DNA from: a virus
IMG/VR virus record: IMGVR_UViG_3300042465_004991
Span: 1-20,461 of that record
Reading direction: 5' to 3' (one strand)
DNA length: 20,461 bases
Part shown: positions 8,215 through 20,110 of the stretch, one piece after another
How positions within the stretch are numbered: the first letter of the stretch is position 1
Layout: each line of letters opens with the position of its first letter
The notes under the pieces: model-generated
Told to the model about the DNA's origin: nothing
Database searches by the model: none
Seen by the model: the letters and a program-made list of their open reading frames with translations, nothing else
Position numbers and translations under genes: made by a program

Positions 8215-8463
8215 ATGCCAATGCTCAAGAGGAACTACAAACAAGAATACAAGACCGCGATGGCGCGGGGTGAGCATGATGATCGGATGGAACGCCAACG
8301 GGCTCGTCGGGCTCTGGACAAGAAGGGCGTGGCACGCAAGGGCAAGGATGTTGCCCATGTGAAAGCCCTCTCAAAGGGCGGCTCCAACAAAGATGGCTAC
8401 CGCCTTGAGCCTCCCTCCAAGAACCGCAGTTTCAAACGGAACCCTGATGGATCAATGAAGTGA
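8215..8463 (+). CDS. HNH-endonuclease-like small phage protein
   Basis: An 82-residue basic protein. The C-terminal part, VAHVKALSKGGSNKDGYRLE followed by PPSKNRSFKR, matches the HNH core (H..alsKGGs.....l) of a small protein family common in phages, often beside replication genes. The usual DVDH is DVAH here, and the third metal ligand is not evident, so catalysis is uncertain. AGGAG precedes the ATG at 8215. Its TGA overlaps the GTG of the primase-helicase as GTGA. Confidence 0.7.
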   Translation: MPMLKRNYKQEYKTAMARGEHDDRMERQRARRALDKKGVARKGKDVAHVKALSKGGSNKDGYRLEPPSKNRSFKRNPDGSMK

Positions 8464-10142
8464 TTCAATTCGATGACTTCCCGGGAGAGACCTCCCGGAT
8501 CGTCTGCCCCTTCTGCTCTTCGTCGCGCCGGAAGTCTCGTTTAAAGGAGATGACCCTGACGAAGCAGTCAGACGGGGCAGTTTTGTTTTATTGCCACCAT
8601 TGCGATGCAAACGGGGCAGTCCAACCCGAAAGAAGGCAGGAGATTAAATTGTCAGCAGTCCCCCAACCAAAGATTCTGGAGAACGCACTCCAGGGTCCTC
8701 ACTATGAGTACCTCCAGAGCAGAGGCATCTCGAAAGAAACCGCAGACAAGTACAAGTTGTTTGCAGGCCGTAAGTGGTTCGCCCGTCTAAACAAGGAGGC
8801 AGACTGCATCGGCTTCCCGTACTTCCGTGACGGGGCCTTGGTTGGGGTGAAGTACCGATCCTTCCCTGATAAAGATTTCACGCAGGAGTCCGGCGGCGCT
8901 CACGACTTCTTCGGTTTGGACAACATCATCCCTGACCGTCCCATCGTGATCGTTGAGGGGGAGATCGATGCACTGACCCTCCACGAATGTGGCGTAGACA
9001 ATGTCCTGTCCGTCCCTGGCGGGGCACCCGTGAAGGTGGCAGACGGTAAGGTTCTGCCCTCTGAAGACAAGAAGTTTGCGTTCGTATGGAATGCGCGGGA
9101 GGTCCTGGAGAAGGCCCCGTACATCATTCTTGCGACTGACCAGGATGCACCAGGGCAGGCCCTCGCGGAGGAGTTGGCACGGCGCATCGGGAAGGACAAA
9201 TGCCGAGCGGCCAAGTTCGATGCCAAAGATTTAAATGAGGTCTTCAACGACCCCTCACGGGAGGGTACTACTCTCATCCACGGAATCCTCGCCGCCGCGC
9301 AGCCATACCCAATCGCCGGTCTGTCCGACGCAGGCACCTACGCTGATCGTCTAAACGATCTGTTCAGCAAGGGCACGGGCAAGGGATTCAGCACGGGCTA
9401 CCAATCCCTGGACACGATCTACACCATCGCGCCGGGGCAGTTGAGTGTGGTCACGGGCTACCCCTCGTCGGGCAAGTCCAACTTCGTTGATCAGATCATG
9501 GTCAACCTCGCACGGGACCATGACTGGAAGTTCGCGGTCTGCTCGTTTGAGAATCAGCCTGAGATACATATCTCGCGCCTGATGGAAATCTACACACGGC
9601 TGCGCTTCTTCGAAGGGGCAGACCGCATGACCCCCGCGCAGATGGAAAAGGCGTTCAAGTGGGTCAATGAACACTTCCTCTTCATTGATTCCAACGGGGA
9701 GGAACCCAACACCCTGGACTCCATCCTGGAGAGGGCGCGTGTTGCGGTTAAACGCATGGGCGTGCGGGGTTTGGTGATCGACCCCTACAACTACATCGAG
9801 TTGGACCGCAGGGATACAACCGAGACAGACGCCATCAGTCAGATGCTGACCAAGGTGCAGAAGTTCTGCAAGGCGCATGAGGTGCATACCTTCTTCATCG
9901 CCCACCCATCCAAGATTCAACGCAGCGGGACAGAGCAGCCAAGGCCGGACGGGATGTCCATCTCAGGCTCGATGGCGTGGTGGGCCAAGGCCGACTGCGG
10001 GGTGACAGTCCACAGGCAGACCGACCATGTGGAGATTGCCATTTGGAAATGTAGGTATCGGTGGGTCGGGACACAGGGGGAGACCACCCTGATCTTCAAC
10101 AAGACCGCAGGCACCTACTCGGAAGACCTCGACAAGTTTTAA
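8460..10142 (+). CDS. Bifunctional DNA primase-helicase (T7 gp4/Twinkle-like)
   Basis: A 560-residue replication protein. The N-terminal zinc finger is CPFC (16-19) with CHHC (45-48), needed for primer-site recognition. The TOPRIM domain shows VIVEGEIDALT (about 162-172) and the DQDAPG metal site near 226. The C-terminal RecA-type helicase has Walker A GYPSSGKSN near 333-341, Walker B GLVIDPYNY, HPSK, then the GSMAWWAKAD hexamer-type motif. Length fits the family. It starts at GTG 8460, overlapping the HNH-like gene. It probably drives phage fork movement; the origin-like site is near 17 kb. Codons such as CTA AAC and GTT AAA create further TAAAC motifs. Confidence 0.9.
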   Translation: MIQFDDFPGETSRIVCPFCSSSRRKSRLKEMTLTKQSDGAVLFYCHHCDANGAVQPERRQEIKLSAVPQPKILENALQGPHYEYLQSRGISKETADKYKLFAGRKWFARLNKEADCIGFPYFRDGALVGVKYRSFPDKDFTQESGGAHDFFGLDNIIPDRPIVIVEGEIDALTLHECGVDNVLSVPGGAPVKVADGKVLPSEDKKFAFVWNAREVLEKAPYIILATDQDAPGQALAEELARRIGKDKCRAAKFDAKDLNEVFNDPSREGTTLIHGILAAAQPYPIAGLSDAGTYADRLNDLFSKGTGKGFSTGYQSLDTIYTIAPGQLSVVTGYPSSGKSNFVDQIMVNLARDHDWKFAVCSFENQPEIHISRLMEIYTRLRFFEGADRMTPAQMEKAFKWVNEHFLFIDSNGEEPNTLDSILERARVAVKRMGVRGLVIDPYNYIELDRRDTTETDAISQMLTKVQKFCKAHEVHTFFIAHPSKIQRSGTEQPRPDGMSISGSMAWWAKADCGVTVHRQTDHVEIAIWKCRYRWVGTQGETTLIFNKTAGTYSEDLDKF

Positions 10143-11879: not shown

Positions 11880-13415
11880 TCACGCCGCCAACTTGATCTG
11901 GGTGAACACGGCCTCACCCAACTGGCTGATATTTCTGATGGTGATGGCCTGGGAATAGATGTCGCTCACGCTGCACCCGATACCCACGCCGATCACGGTC
12001 ACGCCCAGTGCCTTGGCAGACTGGCACAGGCCACGGACATCATCGATGAACCCACGGCCATCAGTCAGCACGAAGATCACACGGCGGCGCTCAGGACGGG
12101 CGAGCAGGGATTCCAGGGCCAAACGCACAGCGCCCCGGTCATTCGTGCCACCACCGGAACCCACGCGACTCAGGACATCACGCACCTTGCTGCGGTTGGT
12201 GGTCCAGGGCAGGGCAACAGAGGCCGAGGAACCGAAGGTGATCAACTGCACCTGAACCTCGGCGTTGATCAGGGAATCTGCCAGGGCATAGGCCACTGAG
12301 CAGGCATCACCCAGGGCACCGCACATTGAACCCGAGCGGTCGATCAGGATGGACACCGCACTGTCGATGCCATCAACATCATCACGGCGTTGGAACAGGC
12401 GGTCATCACCCCGGTGCAGGGATCGCACATTGAGGGAACCGGAGCGGCGACCCGGTGTAAACAGGGTATGCCCGGAGTTGTCGAACAGGCGGCGCACCTC
12501 ATAGCGAAGCCGCGCAGGCACATTGATCGAGATGTCGTAGACCGAATGGCGGTACAGGTGCATACCGTCCTGGGATACATCATCATCAGCAGAATTGCCG
12601 CCGCCCATCTCGGGGCTCACGCCGACAGAGGGCTCGACCTCGGTGGAGTCCATCGAGGCTGATGCTTTCTGTGCGTTGCCAACATCCTGGCCGCTCGATC
12701 CCTGGCCATCGCCCTGGCCTTGATCGCCCTGGTCACCCTGTTCACCCTGGCCATCATTGGACGGGTTGCTTTGGTTCTCGATGTTCTTCAGTTGGTCGAA
12801 CACCCACTGGGCGATGCTCAAGGTGTCGTGGGAATTGTCGGCAGCATCGATGCGGCGCGAGGCTTCCGCGAAGATAGGTTCCAGGCCATTGGCCAGGGGC
12901 ACAGGCTTGGCGTAGCGGCGACCATAGATCGCCAGGGCGAAGGGATACTGGCGGGGGTCTGCCCAGTCGGTGACCTGGGCCAGGGCTTCCTCCACCATCT
13001 GCCCGACAAGGTTGGTCAGCACCGACTCGATGTTGCCCGTCACCCGGTTGGCAATGCCACGGCGCTCGATCCAAATGTCCTCGACCGCATTGTGTAAACG
13101 GTCGATGTACGGGGCGCCGGAGCGGGGGCCAAAGTCGGTGTACATCAGGTGCAGCGCCTCATGCAGCACGAACCCCACATACCGGACAAACAGGGCACGG
13201 GATACCTTGGCCTCATCCTTCACAGCAGCCAACTTCATATGGCCCCGTTCGTTTACACAGGCAGTGGGGATCGACTCCCAACTCACCTTCAACTGAACAT
13301 GGTCAGGCATCATGGGGCGCAGCGACTGGGCCAGGGTGGCAATGGCGCGGCGCAGTTCCCACCCATACACGAAGGGGCGGCGGGACAGTCCGACAATGAA
13401 TGAATCCTGGTGCAT
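11880..13415 (-). CDS. VWA-domain protein with N-terminal HExxH metallopeptidase-like domain
   Basis: A 511-residue protein. The N-terminal domain carries GFVLHEALHLMYTD with HEALH at 85-89, a zinc-peptidase-type HExxH, as in VWA-like predicted metallopeptidases. Residues about 213-247 are a Gly/Gln-rich linker. The C-terminal VWA domain (about 353-505) keeps the full MIDAS: DRSGS (359-363), Thr in GGGTND (424) and LTDGRG (D452). Such VWA proteins commonly partner MoxR-type ATPases; one lies directly upstream. Start ATG 13415 follows AGGAG, with its own predicted promoter. Whether the peptidase site is active is not known. Confidence 0.8.
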   Translation of the reverse strand: MHQDSFIVGLSRRPFVYGWELRRAIATLAQSLRPMMPDHVQLKVSWESIPTACVNERGHMKLAAVKDEAKVSRALFVRYVGFVLHEALHLMYTDFGPRSGAPYIDRLHNAVEDIWIERRGIANRVTGNIESVLTNLVGQMVEEALAQVTDWADPRQYPFALAIYGRRYAKPVPLANGLEPIFAEASRRIDAADNSHDTLSIAQWVFDQLKNIENQSNPSNDGQGEQGDQGDQGQGDGQGSSGQDVGNAQKASASMDSTEVEPSVGVSPEMGGGNSADDDVSQDGMHLYRHSVYDISINVPARLRYEVRRLFDNSGHTLFTPGRRSGSLNVRSLHRGDDRLFQRRDDVDGIDSAVSILIDRSGSMCGALGDACSVAYALADSLINAEVQVQLITFGSSASVALPWTTNRSKVRDVLSRVGSGGGTNDRGAVRLALESLLARPERRRVIFVLTDGRGFIDDVRGLCQSAKALGVTVIGVGIGCSVSDIYSQAITIRNISQLGEAVFTQIKLAA

Positions 13416-13483: not shown

Positions 13484-14926
13484 TCACAGTGCAGCCTGCA
13501 ACTCAGCCTCATTCACCTCGGCGGTGAAGATAGCCTCGATGGCAAGGGTGGACTCGGCGGGTTGGGACGCTGCCACGGTCAAGTCCCAGGCGCGGCGCAC
13601 CCCGAGGGTGGGCATGGCGCGAACCCAGGCCATGACCTGACGGATCGAGGGCGCATCGATCACCTCACCCGTCTGCACCTTGGCACGGGCGGTGGTGACC
13701 ACCCGCATGGCCAGGGTTGCCAGGGCGGGGTTGCAGCCAGTGTGCTTGACCACCGCCTCGATCTCGCGCTCCAGGGGCAGGAAGGTGAAGGGCACCTTCA
13801 GTGCGAAGCGGTCGAGCAGGGCAGGGTTCATCACCCGGGTGCCCACATAGCGGCCCGAGGTATCGCCGTTCCCGCCAGTGTTGTCAGCCACAAAGCACAG
13901 GGCACCAGGGGCAGCAGCCCACACTGCGCCGCCGATGTTTACACGGCCATTTGGTTCGAGCAGGCCGTTGAGGTAGGCCAGTTCGCCAGGGTCACAGTTG
14001 GTGATCTCATCACAGAGGGTGATCGAGCCCGGGGTCGAGCAGAATGACCGCAGGAAGGGGCCAGGGACAAACCCAGTCGAGCCACTGGTCAGACCTTGGG
14101 CACCGATGAACTCTTCCACGGTGGTGAACTTGTGGAAGTTGATGCGTGTAAACGCACGGCCAGTACGGGCGGCGAACTGTCGGGCGGTCTCGGTCTTTCC
14201 GGTGCCCTTCTCGCCACCCATCCACACATTGGCGCGGATAGCCTGGGCGGTGATCAGGGGCGCGAGGTTGGCCTCAGTCCAAATGAAGGTCTCATCGATG
14301 GCGGGTGCATCAGGGTGACCCCACAGATCAACCATGATGGGGTTGCCACGGGTATCCCGGACATCGACCCCAAACACAGCCCAGGCGGTGTCCTGGCCAA
14401 CAGGGGCAGCACTGGCAGCGACAACAGCGGCCTGGGCTTGATTGGCCTCGGCAGCGGCTTTGATGGGGCCGAATGCTTCTGCCACCTGCTTGGCGATGGC
14501 GCGTTCCACTGCGGCCTTCTGCCCCTTGGTGCTGACCACAGCGGCCAACTCGCCCTGGGTCTTGGTCAGGGTCTCGGACAGTCCGGCCACACTGGCCTTC
14601 AGGGTCTGCACCTGGGCGGTGAGGGTATCGGACTGGGTCTTGGCCTCCAGTGCCACCGCCTCGGCACGGCCTGCGGCAGCAGCCACCGCAGTGTCCACGG
14701 TAGGGGCAGAGGGTGCCGCCTGGGAGCGGCCAACCGGATTGCCCAGGCCACGGTAGGACTGCACATTGCCCAGGGTGGTGCGGTGCGCCACGATTTCATC
14801 GCGCAGGGCGGCGATGCACTGGGCCTTGGTCATGGCCATCGGGTTGATCCCCACGCCGAGTGCGGCGGCGTACAGGTCGGGGCCGTTCATCTTGCTGAGT
14901 TCGATGGTGATCTGTGCAGCGTTCAT
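13484..14926 (-). CDS. MoxR/CobS-like AAA+ ATPase
   Basis: A 480-residue ATPase. The first 180 residues are Ala-rich and coiled-coil-like (about 80-175). The AAA+ core follows: Walker A GGEKGTGKT (237-245), Walker B SITLCDE (301-307), a sensor VADNT near 350 and an arginine in ALLDRF. The substrate-loop shape (GFVPGPFLRSF) and the adjacent VWA gene fit the MoxR/CobS group, which remodels proteins or inserts cofactors together with a VWA partner. The leader is AGGAGATTTAAACAATG. The gene contains GTTTACAC in two different frames (V-N and F-T). Confidence 0.85.
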   Translation of the reverse strand: MNAAQITIELSKMNGPDLYAAALGVGINPMAMTKAQCIAALRDEIVAHRTTLGNVQSYRGLGNPVGRSQAAPSAPTVDTAVAAAAGRAEAVALEAKTQSDTLTAQVQTLKASVAGLSETLTKTQGELAAVVSTKGQKAAVERAIAKQVAEAFGPIKAAAEANQAQAAVVAASAAPVGQDTAWAVFGVDVRDTRGNPIMVDLWGHPDAPAIDETFIWTEANLAPLITAQAIRANVWMGGEKGTGKTETARQFAARTGRAFTRINFHKFTTVEEFIGAQGLTSGSTGFVPGPFLRSFCSTPGSITLCDEITNCDPGELAYLNGLLEPNGRVNIGGAVWAAAPGALCFVADNTGGNGDTSGRYVGTRVMNPALLDRFALKVPFTFLPLEREIEAVVKHTGCNPALATLAMRVVTTARAKVQTGEVIDAPSIRQVMAWVRAMPTLGVRRAWDLTVAASQPAESTLAIEAIFTAEVNEAELQAAL

Positions 14927-16506: not shown

Positions 16507-16710
16507 TTAAACGGATTCGATGGTGATTGCGGACTCGATGGCGTCTATTGCTGCCTGGACTCGGCGCGACTGGCGGTCGATGATGGCCTTGACCACTTCA
16601 GACTGGCCGTGCTTCCGAAGGTCTTCAGCCAGTTGATGTTGGCGATCCCAAAGGGCGATCAGGGTCTCCTGGGCGATTCCCAGGTCGAGGGTGATAGTGG
16701 CTTGGGTCAT
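16507..16710 (-). CDS. Hypothetical small helical protein
   Basis: A 67-residue mainly helical protein (MTQATITLDLGIAQETLIALWDRQHQLAED...). It is the first gene of the leftward operon that begins at the origin-like region. ATG 16710 has AGGAG eight bases upstream; the frame extends to 16764 but the added residues overlap the promoter. Not recognised. Confidence 0.65.
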   Translation of the reverse strand: MTQATITLDLGIAQETLIALWDRQHQLAEDLRKHGQSEVVKAIIDRQSRRVQAAIDAIESAITIESV

Positions 16711-16754
16711 GGTCTTGGCTCCTGGTTGTGCAGCACCGTGCTGCGATGGATCGA

Positions 16755-16784
16755 AGTATTGCACTAGTCCAACCGTTTACACAA
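16755..16784 (-). promoter_or_regulatory. Possible leftward promoter beside the origin
   Basis: Minus-strand AATACT (16760-16755) with TTGTGT (16784-16779) 18 bp upstream is a weak sigma70-like pair. The spacer holds GCACTAGTCC (16761-16770), and the -35 overlaps a GTTTACAC copy (16775-16782). Weak hexamers suggest an activator is needed; confidence rests mainly on position. Confidence 0.35.
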
Positions 16785-16891: not shown

Positions 16892-16909
16892 GGTTAGTAG
16901 GGACTAACC
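16892..16909. promoter_or_regulatory. GGTTAG-N6-CTAACC dyad, copy 1
   Basis: GGTTAGTAGGGACTAACC, an 18-bp dyad next to the first DnaA box. The same arms and spacing recur at 17037-17054. Probably a binding site for a dimeric phage or host protein. Confidence 0.65.
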
Positions 16910-17034
16910 AAATCTGTGGATAAGGCTGTGGATATGTGGGGATGGGGCTGTGGATAAGTGTCGGGTGGTGCCTTGGTATGGGTTGCCCTGAGATGTCCAG
17001 GGACTGCCACATTTGCACAGGTTATCCACAGGTT

Positions 17035-17056
17035 TTGGTTAGCAAGCACTAACCAA
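17035..17056. promoter_or_regulatory. GGTTAG-N6-CTAACC dyad, copy 2
   Basis: TTGGTTAG, six bases, CTAACCAA: an extended version of copy 1 with 8-bp arms, lying among the right-hand DnaA boxes. The two copies are 145 bp apart and bracket the centre of the origin-like region. Confidence 0.65.
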
Positions 17057-17107
17057 GTTGTCCACAGGCTTGTCCACAGGTTATCCCCAGAGTTATCCAC
17101 AGATGGG

Positions 17108-17137
17108 TTGACGGCGGGGGCGTTTACACCGCAGAAT
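17108..17137 (+). promoter_or_regulatory. Possible rightward promoter for the packaging genes
   Basis: TTGACG (17108-17113), an 18-bp spacer and CAGAAT (17132-17137). The spacer contains GTTTACAC (17122-17129). The small terminase gene starts about 55 bases downstream of the predicted start site. Confidence 0.45.
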
Positions 17138-17196
17138 GCGAACAGGCTGGACGCCCATACAGTATGGGGTTCTGTACAGGTGGAAGGGGTGAGACC

Positions 17197-17853
17197 GTGA
17201 CAAGGGTACTGAGGGAAGACTACGAGCGGCTGCTTGATGAGGCCGGAGATGATGCCGAGAGGGAAGTTGACGAGGCTGCCCTCGAAGAGACTATCGCGGC
17301 GCGGCTCGCAGCACTAGCAGAGGACGGCCAGGACATAGGCGAAGCCGAACAGGCAGCGGTTACCGCAGAAGGGCCATCACTGCGTCCCGATGGTCAGGTG
17401 GTAGGAATAGCAGAAGGAAAGAGCAGACCACTCACCAAAGCACAGATAGCCTTTGCCCAGGGAGTGATAGAGGGGAAGAGCAGAGTCCAGGCATACCGGG
17501 ATGCCTACAACAACACCACCGCCCAAACATCAACCATCGGAGCAGCAGCCACAAGGCTGATGAAAGACCCACGCATCAAACGCATGGTCGAAGCAGGATG
17601 GGAAGAGACCCAGGAAGCACTGGCTGATGACATACAGGCCACGAGAAGGTATGTGGGACGCGCACTGGTGGCATTGAGCAGAGGCGGGAAGCAGGAAGGC
17701 ACTCGCCTGCGTGCCCTAGAACTCCTGGGCAGAACCGCAGGGATGTTCCGTGACGCACAGGAACAGAAGCAGGCACCAGTCACCGCAGAGCAACTACGCA
17801 AGGAACTCGCGGGACACCTGCGCCTCCTCAGCACTGTGCAGAAGAAGGCATGA
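17197..17853 (+). CDS. terS: Terminase small subunit
   Basis: A 218-residue protein likely to recognise phage DNA for packaging. The first 60 residues are very acidic. Residues about 80-130 (LTKAQIAFAQGVIEGKSRVQ, then AYRDAY, AAATRLMKDPRIKRMVE) match the helix-turn-helix of the Terminase_2 group. The C-terminal half is helical and probably oligomerises and contacts TerL. GTG 17197 has AAGGGG upstream; ATG 17164 in frame lacks a ribosome site. Unlike most phages, two small genes and a 307-bp gap separate it from the large subunit. Confidence 0.75.
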   Translation: MTRVLREDYERLLDEAGDDAEREVDEAALEETIAARLAALAEDGQDIGEAEQAAVTAEGPSLRPDGQVVGIAEGKSRPLTKAQIAFAQGVIEGKSRVQAYRDAYNNTTAQTSTIGAAATRLMKDPRIKRMVEAGWEETQEALADDIQATRRYVGRALVALSRGGKQEGTRLRALELLGRTAGMFRDAQEQKQAPVTAEQLRKELAGHLRLLSTVQKKA

Positions 17854-18160: not shown

Positions 18161-18331
18161 ATGCTCAAAGACTACGCGTACCCCACGATGAAGGCAGAAC
18201 GTGCTTTGAAGGACTTGCACGACGCTGTGTTGGATAAGGATTTGGAGAAGGCTCTGGAGAAGTCCAAAGACGCTGCGAAGTGGATTTGGGAGATTCAGGA
18301 GGCTTTGGTTGAGATGAAGGGTAAGGGATGA
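18161..18331 (+). CDS. Small helical protein (56 aa)
   Basis: A 56-residue charged helical protein (MLKDYAYPTMKAERALKDLH...) of unknown function. No Shine-Dalgarno is visible before the ATG, so it may rely on an AU-rich leader. Codon use changes here (more GCT, TTG, GAG/AAG) compared with TerS. Its stop overlaps the next gene as ATGA. Confidence 0.55.
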   Translation: MLKDYAYPTMKAERALKDLHDAVLDKDLEKALEKSKDAAKWIWEIQEALVEMKGKG

Positions 18332-18576
18332 GACCTCGGCAGAAGATGACTCCTCAGTGGGAGAAGGTGCTGAGGTTTATCAGGGCGTACCTGAGGATTC
18401 ACGGGGTGTCTCCGTCTTACGCCGTGATGGCCCAAAGTTTGGGATTGAAGTCCCGAGCCAATATGCACAGGATCGTGACGAGGCTTGAGGAGGAGGGGCA
18501 CTTGGAGAAGAAGCCCCGGAAGTTCTACGCGATCAAGGTGGTAGATCGATCCGTGAAGGATGTTGCTTCCCTATGA
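18328..18576 (+). CDS. LexA-type winged-helix DNA-binding protein
   Basis: An 82-residue protein equal to a LexA N-terminal domain without the peptidase half: WEKVLRFIRAYLRIHGVSPS (11-30), YAVMAQSLGLKS and a recognition helix ANMHRIVTRLEEEGHLEKKP (about 44-63). It should bind DNA but cannot undergo RecA-stimulated self-cleavage. It lies between TerS and TerL, coupled by ATGA to the gene before and overlapping the TerL start, so it may regulate the late genes or compete with host LexA. Confidence 0.75.
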   Translation: MRPRQKMTPQWEKVLRFIRAYLRIHGVSPSYAVMAQSLGLKSRANMHRIVTRLEEEGHLEKKPRKFYAIKVVDRSVKDVASL

Positions 18577-20110
18577 GAAAAAACCGCAGGTTTTGTATAG
18601 CGAGGTACTCCGAGTGAGTCTGTTGTCTCAGAAGGAGACTGCTCAGTACTTGTCTATTGTGGACAAGGTTCCTGAGAAGGAGAGAGTGAAGATCAAGCAA
18701 CTTCTGGAGTTTGACCGTGTCCAGAGGTGCCAGGAGTCCTTTCTCTTCTTTGTACAGCAGATGTGGCCTGTCTTTATCTCAGGTAGGCATCACAAGATCA
18801 TGGCAGATGCCTTTGAGAGAGTCGCAAGGGGGGAACTTAAACGGCTGATCATCAACATGCCGCCCCGCCATACCAAGTCGGAGTTCGCCTCTTACCTGCT
18901 CCCGGCGTGGTTCCTTGGTCGGTTTCCTCAAAAGAAGATCATCCAGACTGCCCATACGGCTGAACTGGCAGTTGGATTCGGACGCAAGGTACGTAACCTT
19001 GTCCAGTCTGACCACTATCAGAAGGTTTTTCAGACCAAACTGTCCTCCGACTCAAAAGCGGCAGGCCGTTGGAACACGGAACAGGGCGGAGATTACTTCG
19101 CTATCGGTGTTGGAGGTGCTGTAACGGGTAAGGGCGCTGACATCCTGATCATTGACGACCCTCATTCGGAGCAGGAAGCCAAGCAAGGCAAGCCGGAGGT
19201 CTATGACGGGGTGTATGAGTGGTACACATCCGGCCCGCGTCAGCGTTTACAGCCTGGGGGAAGCATCATTATCGTGATGACCCGGTGGGCCAAGCGTGAT
19301 CTGACGGGGCAGATTCTCAAAAATTCAGGAAAAGATGGTACGGATGACTGGGAAGTCATTGAATTTCCCGCAATTCTTCCGTCCGGGAACCCTCTTTGGC
19401 CCGGATTTTGGAAAAAAGACGAGTTGGAGGCCATCAAGGCCGAGATTCCGGTCGGGAAGTGGGAGGCTCAGTACCAACAGAACCCCACTTCCGAGGAAGG
19501 CGCGATCATCAAGCGCGAGTATTGGCAGATTTGGCACGACGAGGACCCCCCGTCCTGCGATTACGTCATTCAGTCCTGGGATACGGCCTTCGAAAAGCAC
19601 AACCGGGCAGACTATTCAGCCTGTACGACCTGGGGAGTCTTCTACCGGGAGAACAAAAACGGGGAAATGAAGCCCAACATCATCCTTTTGGACGCCTTCA
19701 AGGACCGGATGGAGTTCCCGGAACTCAAAGAGAAGGCGATGGAGATGTGGAAGGAGTGGAACCCCGACACTCTGATCATCGAAAAGAGGGCCGCAGGCGC
19801 TCCCTTGATCTATGAACTGAGGAAGGCGGGTATCCCGCTGTCCGAATACACCCCATACAAGGGGCAGGACAAGATCGCCCGGGTCAATTCCATTAGCGAT
19901 TTGTTTGCTTCCGGGGTAGTATGGCGACCGGAAAAGAGGTGGGCAGAGGAAGTTGAAGAAGAGATGGCTTCATTCCCAAACGGGGACAACGACGACCTCG
20001 TGGACTCCTCATCCCAGGCCCTGATGAGATTCAGGCAAGGCGGCTTCATCACCATCGACAGTGATGAGAAAGATTACCCTGTGCAGCCCCGTAGGGTTGC
20101 GTACTATTGA
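18560..20110 (+). CDS. terL: Terminase large subunit
   Basis: A 516-residue packaging motor and nuclease. The ATPase domain has a TerL-type Walker A, NMPPRHTKSEF (about 99-109), and Walker B ILIIDDPHSE (about 195-204), followed by the coupling motif VMTRWAKRDL. The RNase H-like nuclease shows QSWDTAF (D341), LIIEKRA (E408) and GDNDDLVDS (about 475-483). The start is uncertain because GAAGG directly touches ATG 18560. Length is normal. The sequence has few copies of the dispersed motif (one GTTTACAG). Confidence 0.9.
   Translation: MLLPYEKKPQVLYSEVLRVSLLSQKETAQYLSIVDKVPEKERVKIKQLLEFDRVQRCQESFLFFVQQMWPVFISGRHHKIMADAFERVARGELKRLIINMPPRHTKSEFASYLLPAWFLGRFPQKKIIQTAHTAELAVGFGRKVRNLVQSDHYQKVFQTKLSSDSKAAGRWNTEQGGDYFAIGVGGAVTGKGADILIIDDPHSEQEAKQGKPEVYDGVYEWYTSGPRQRLQPGGSIIIVMTRWAKRDLTGQILKNSGKDGTDDWEVIEFPAILPSGNPLWPGFWKKDELEAIKAEIPVGKWEAQYQQNPTSEEGAIIKREYWQIWHDEDPPSCDYVIQSWDTAFEKHNRADYSACTTWGVFYRENKNGEMKPNIILLDAFKDRMEFPELKEKAMEMWKEWNPDTLIIEKRAAGAPLIYELRKAGIPLSEYTPYKGQDKIARVNSISDLFASGVVWRPEKRWAEEVEEEMASFPNGDNDDLVDSSSQALMRFRQGGFITIDSDEKDYPVQPRRVAYY

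Follow-up and report, generated by a model that had tools for sequence, protein, structure and literature searches.

The window analysed here, by which we mean the whole 20,461-bp IMG/VR virus record, belongs to a freshwater tailed phage whose large terminase matches the terminases of 023Pt_psg01, HTVC027P, DSL-LC04 and HTVC023P (51–59% identity). Its left side carries early and replication genes, including a Sak annealing protein, a PD-(D/E)XK nuclease, RusA, a primase/helicase (the only replisome gene found in the window) and an AAA_5 ATPase accompanied by a VWA protein, and its right side terS, a LexA-like winged-helix protein and terL. Between a leftward gene and terS, in a divergent position, lies an array of DnaA boxes. 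No phage-encoded DnaA gene was found, and Rep, partition or integrase genes, as would accompany plasmid-like replication, were not recognised among the ORFs scanned in the window, which is a fragment. A hint as to the host comes from two related contigs binned into one Burkholderiales MAG, one of them with an 80% terL match; since binning is weak evidence, the host is left open. On the minus strand, 11880–13415 and 13484–14926 encode a VWA/CobT-like protein adjoining the AAA_5 ATPase, a chelatase-like pair.

The DnaA-box array and the terS promoter

The features of the locus are as follows.

8460–10142, plus strand: primase/helicase (phrog_239; Toprim and DnaB_C domains)
16507–16764, minus strand: small divergent (leftward) ORF left of the array, from the ORF list; no PHROG match
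16892–16909: dyad GGTTAG-n6-CTAACC left of the array, a possible operator; arms kept in the closest relative (L008), loop changed
16915–17101, left three boxes minus strand, right six plus strand: DnaA-box array, four perfect and five one-mismatch boxes in 187 bp
16915–16923, minus strand: perfect box TTATCCACA (DnaA-box scan)
16927–16935, minus strand: near box ATATCCACA, one mismatch, 12 bp pitch to the preceding box
16949–16957, minus strand: perfect box TTATCCACA (DnaA-box scan)
17011–17019, plus strand: near box ATTTGCACA, one mismatch
17022–17030, plus strand: perfect box TTATCCACA (DnaA-box scan), 11 bp pitch
17035–17056: second dyad, TTGGTTAG-n6-CTAACCAA, lying within the array and with a left arm that is not conserved in L008
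17058–17101, plus strand: four-box tandem run TTGTCCACA, TTGTCCACA, TTATCCCCA, TTATCCACA with gaps of 2–3 bp (near boxes starting at 17058, 17070 and 17081, perfect box at 17093)
17108–17137, plus strand: sigma70-type terS promoter (−35 TTGACG at 17108–17113, 18-bp spacer, −10 CAGAAT at 17132–17137)
17138–17144, plus strand: conserved discriminator GCGAACA directly after the −10, from the comparison of relatives
17197–17853, plus strand: terS, small terminase (phrog_51, E 1.4e-11)
18560–20110, plus strand: terL, large terminase (Terminase_6C)
Copies of the octamer GTTTACAC (start and strand): 93−, 3786+, 10424−, 10472−, 11628+, 12455−, 13092−, 13251+, 13937+, 14146−, 16053−, 16775+, 17122+, 17925−, 18125+

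The four perfect boxes (16915−, 16949−, 17022+ and 17093+) are the only matches to TTWTNCACA in the 20.5-kb window, and their clustering exceeds chance: shuffling of the window gave an expectation of 0.80 strict boxes per shuffle, with none of 100 shuffles reaching four, and the best 190-bp cluster scored 17 (4 perfect), compared with a maximum of 5, or one perfect box, in 300 third-order Markov windows. The tandem pairs of the window are spaced 11–12 bp start to start, equivalent to gaps of 2–3 bp. An initial annotation had listed four perfect and four near-perfect boxes within about 190 bp in a converging arrangement; the perfect boxes and the opposed halves are as described there, but five one-mismatch boxes were found, and the left boxes point left and the right boxes right, making the arrangement divergent. 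The AT-rich flank to which it drew attention is not special, as a 40-bp stretch of equal or higher AT content occurs in 74% of random windows of the same size.

What that annotation missed is the sigma70-type promoter immediately to the right of the array, with a predicted terS transcription start near 17144. Translation of terS probably begins at GTG 17197, judging from the RBS and from L008, which has an ATG in the corresponding position. In most relatives a −10 hexamer and the conserved discriminator follow the last box. In 65% of loci a match to the −10/discriminator consensus TATAATGCGAACA at 10 or more of 13 positions lies no more than 120 bp from the array, as opposed to 1% of random windows, an enrichment which is somewhat optimistic because the consensus was picked after viewing the same loci. 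Of 37 loci, 28 have a box overlapping the core promoter (−38 to −6). No box of the window reaches the core promoter, the closest one spanning −51 to −43, and L012, L026 and L064 have their promoter-like site at a distance of 67–98 bp. Boxes thus placed at or near a predicted sigma70 promoter are what would be looked for in a promoter regulated by DnaA. A 5' hairpin in the terS leader, apparent by eye in several relatives, was discarded as a candidate element, with folding z-scores being mixed and, in the window, positive.

Conservation among related phages

Eighty IMG/VR loci were collected by terL homology, of which the 42 extending 1.8 kb or more beyond the 5' side of terL were used, an array being counted where two or more perfect boxes fell within 260 bp. 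A DnaA-box cluster is present in 38 of these 42 loci, about 1.1–1.7 kb upstream of terL and just before terS, and perfect boxes are almost absent from the remainder of the 4.5 kb upstream of terL. The four exceptions consist of three named relatives (L085–L087) that lack the array and one locus (L016) with one perfect and several near boxes. The number, order and orientation of boxes vary across loci, even between close relatives; because the location is kept while the layout varies, it seems to be the presence of DnaA sites, not a fixed geometry, that is selected.

Neighbouring boxes across the loci form 93 tandem, 17 convergent and 13 divergent pairs, and boxes on the same strand are pitched at 11 bp (26 cases) or 12 bp (15 cases). 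This dominant tandem pitch corresponds to the gap of 2–3 bp that E. coli DnaA prefers between paired boxes in vivo, as determined by ChIP-seq (PMC11317965).

Comparison with the closest relative, L008, locates the changes. The promoter and 5'UTR (17105–17163) differ at 0 of 59 positions as opposed to 13.9% within terS, and the array region at 13 of 213 as opposed to 25% in the intergenic part to its left. Inside the array, a single change falls in 81 bp of box sequence and 12 in the other 132 bp, and that single change (17060, A in L008) turns TTGTCCACA into TTATCCACA, an improved box. Taken at the level of sequence, the comparisons show a conserved DnaA-box array coupled to the predicted terS promoter in the clade of the window. 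Given this conservation, the DnaA-preferred spacing and the preservation of boxes relative to L008, there is strong support for regarding the array as a genuine cluster of host-DnaA-binding sites through which host DnaA would be engaged.

Two GGTTAG-n6-CTAACC dyads at the locus had also been overlooked. In the intergenic regions of L036, L046, L055, L059, L064 and L012, dyads GTCTTATATAAGAC or GTCTTCTATAAGAC adjoin DnaA boxes and occupy the place of GGTTAG-n6-CTAACC in the window; they are possible operators of a phage regulator. An 82-aa protein encoded between terS and terL (18328–18576) has a LexA-type DNA-binding domain and no peptidase domain, and is a candidate regulator of the dyads or of the promoter.

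The octamer GTTTACAC, two copies of which the initial annotation placed outside the array, is indeed found there, but as part of a dispersed family with 15 copies in the window (0.68 expected), on both strands and within as well as between genes; it was rejected as a component of the array and treated as a separate feature, although one copy (17122–17129) falls in the spacer of the terS promoter. Three relatives (G006, G008 and G009) carry 19–27 copies of it, where about 3 are expected, together with 37–49 copies per ~64 kb of the palindrome GTTTAAAC (roughly 5–7 expected). G005, L035 and the named relatives of pelagiphage type have both motifs at about the expected frequency or not at all. 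The palindrome was rejected as a marker of a Burkholderiales host, as Burkholderiales genomes are not rich in it.

Arrays in other phage lineages

A scan of viral contigs for three copies of TTATCCACA separated by gaps of 2–3 bp returned at least 120 stretches, of which 80 loci were analysed. The statement that most tailed phages show no such array agrees with the three nearest named relatives, but among environmental phages arrays are not rare. Among the matches listed, 25 contigs, mostly from other lineages, carry both the triplet and a recognisable terL, their terL proteins forming about eight blast-level clusters; two seed proteins for this set were picked because of their proximity to arrays, and the search may have overlooked some terL genes. 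The array lies 5' of terL in all 25 and within 2.5 kb upstream in 20 of them, again among the matches listed, the placement on the 5' side being partly trivial because structural genes fill the downstream side of terL. Five of the contigs share a near-identical terL and two more are 94% alike, so that about 20 are independent, 15 of them with the array near terL. For the first 20 contigs, 18 arrays fall within 2.5 kb upstream, where random positions in the same contigs would give 5.1, and none of 2,000 permutations reached 18. Overlap with a promoter was not supported as a rule in these lineages, in which it is an inconsistent feature.

In T5-like phages arrays occur in the terminal repeats and in T7-like phages near the genome ends, those of the T7-like Berlinviruses being flanked by terL and the early genes. 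They are also found within 100 bp of the genome end in Arthrobacter phage Seahorse (terL starts at 599) and next to the replication initiator gene in several microviruses. In one of the latter, the single-stranded DNA phage PQ006258.1 (microvirus bajarodmic 162; L088:1782–1836), five perfect tandem copies of TTATCCACA at a pitch of 11–12 bp adjoin the initiator gene. Two contigs from a different phage lineage than the window have especially dense arrays, each in about 440 bp upstream of terL: 17 boxes, 12 of them perfect, near position 314 of L178, and 14 boxes, 10 of them perfect, near position 12850 of L128.

Role of the array and comparison with known systems

We tentatively favour the view that the element, which lies at the early/late boundary of this freshwater tailed phage, is a control region where host DnaA binds and acts on the terS promoter; a DnaA-box array set on that promoter, at that boundary, would seem a better description of it than an origin. 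This is favoured by a location that stays fixed while box order and orientation turn over, by the lack of a phage DnaA and by the arrays within 2.5 kb upstream of terL in several other lineages; the core promoter free of box overlap in the window counts against it, as does the fact that origins, too, typically have a promoter within the array. Host DnaA would bind the tandem box pairs and control the terS/late promoter reading into terS–terL and the late genes, most likely by repression, as with E. coli mioC and dnaA, since boxes cover the spacer or the −10 in most relatives. With the nearest box of the window lying upstream of the core promoter, repression by an upstream complex and activation would both be possible there, the sign of the regulation being something that sequence cannot reveal. 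As free DnaA is limited, phage replication, supplying about nine boxes per copy, might then titrate it and alter late-promoter activity, which would tie the packaging genes to genome copy number. In E. coli, DnaA represses mioC and dnaA, and plasmids carrying boxes titrate it (PMC5835720). A broader proposal, that in several unrelated lineages of tailed phages DnaA serves as a genome-copy counter, holding the terminase or late promoter until titrated so that packaging would begin at a set copy number, is in our opinion unlikely.

The main rival, a serious one whether alone or together with promoter control, is that the array is a DnaA-dependent phage origin, which host DnaA would open, with the phage primase/helicase or host DnaB being loaded and host Pol III copying the DNA; we regard this as rather doubtful. 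Four array-bearing relatives of 63–65 kb (G005, G006, G008 and G009) encode the phrog_239 primase/helicase and no detectable polymerase of family A, B or C, and such phages probably depend on the host polymerase because they have no detectable one of their own, whereas the array-less named relatives HTVC027P, 023Pt_psg01 and DSL-LC04 have PolA and lack phrog_239; this correlation, however, amounts to one clade-level contrast. The array is also the only strict DnaA-box cluster in these genomes and is intergenic between divergent genes. The initial annotation, which spoke of a chromosome-like origin, was borne out with regard to host-DnaA sites but not with regard to an origin: a search of the array region for an AT-rich unwinding element found none, and the GC-skew check that it had proposed finds the minimum to coincide with the array in a single one of the four near-complete relatives, G005, whose 31-bp end repeat is the sole sign of completeness among the four, and elsewhere in G006, G008 and G009. 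Skews at four-fold sites follow the gene strand with no leading/lagging switch, making GC skew uninformative as an origin marker, and box geometry differs even between close relatives, contrary to what would be expected of an orisome.

The remaining explanations are considerably less probable. An array acting as a decoy, soaking up host DnaA and blocking initiation on the host chromosome with no local role in cis, would be served by many consensus sites per genome at high copy late in infection, and the ability of box arrays to titrate DnaA is well established (PMC5835720; PMC12371093). A pure decoy could sit anywhere in the genome, yet the array lies just upstream of terS in the clade and near terL elsewhere; we therefore consider pure titration, which the initial annotation had raised, improbable, and titration is retained as a step in the proposed promoter control. 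About equally improbable is a packaging or DNA-entry element near a genome end, with DnaA acting at the entering end or at pac. Sites of the pac or cos type often lie near terS, and the positions of the arrays in T5-like phages, Berlinviruses and Seahorse would fit such an element, as would the injection stop of T5 (PMC13250531). Near-identical contigs (L005–L007), however, begin at different distances from terL, on which grounds a fixed terminus near the array was rejected, and the conserved promoter would be left unexplained. That the boxes are a chance or compositional cluster devoid of function is barely conceivable in the face of the simulations, the conservation in relatives and the preserved boxes.

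To our knowledge, previous accounts of DnaA boxes in phages concern mainly lambda and T5. The clade examined here, a large one of environmental phages, has retained such an array on its terminase promoter while the layout of the boxes has turned over, and this placement recurs elsewhere. If promoter control is the correct reading, host DnaA would regulate the late programme of the phage, linking packaging to genome copy number or to the replication state of the host, and the array would provide a sequence signature for late promoters or origins in uncultured phages.

Among known systems, bacterial oriC arrays share the clustered TTATCCACA boxes, the 2–3 bp tandem spacing and the use of both orientations, but the array in the window lacks their AT-rich unwinding element, conserved geometry and consistent skew minimum. 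The datA locus and other DnaA titration loci are likewise dense clusters that can in principle titrate DnaA (PMC5835720, PMC12371093), unlike the array of the window in that the latter has a fixed promoter-proximal place. In T5, DnaA boxes and inverted repeats are similarly found in a phage control region, that of the injection stop and terminal repeats (PMC13250531 and works cited there), but T5-like arrays lie in the terminal repeats and that of the window flanks terS and a late promoter. At lambda pR and pO-ori, phage DNA is bound by host DnaA close to promoters with an influence on replication, an earlier example of DnaA exerting promoter effects in the vicinity of an origin; lambda, however, has two DnaA-box-like sites downstream of pO and its own O and P initiators (PMC3985674), in contrast with the window, where nine boxes adjoin terS and no initiator was recognised. 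The mioC and dnaA promoters of E. coli resemble it in having DnaA boxes at a sigma70 promoter, with repression set by box occupancy and free DnaA (PMC5835720), and differ in that they serve chromosomal housekeeping genes, where the window has a phage terS/late promoter and more boxes.
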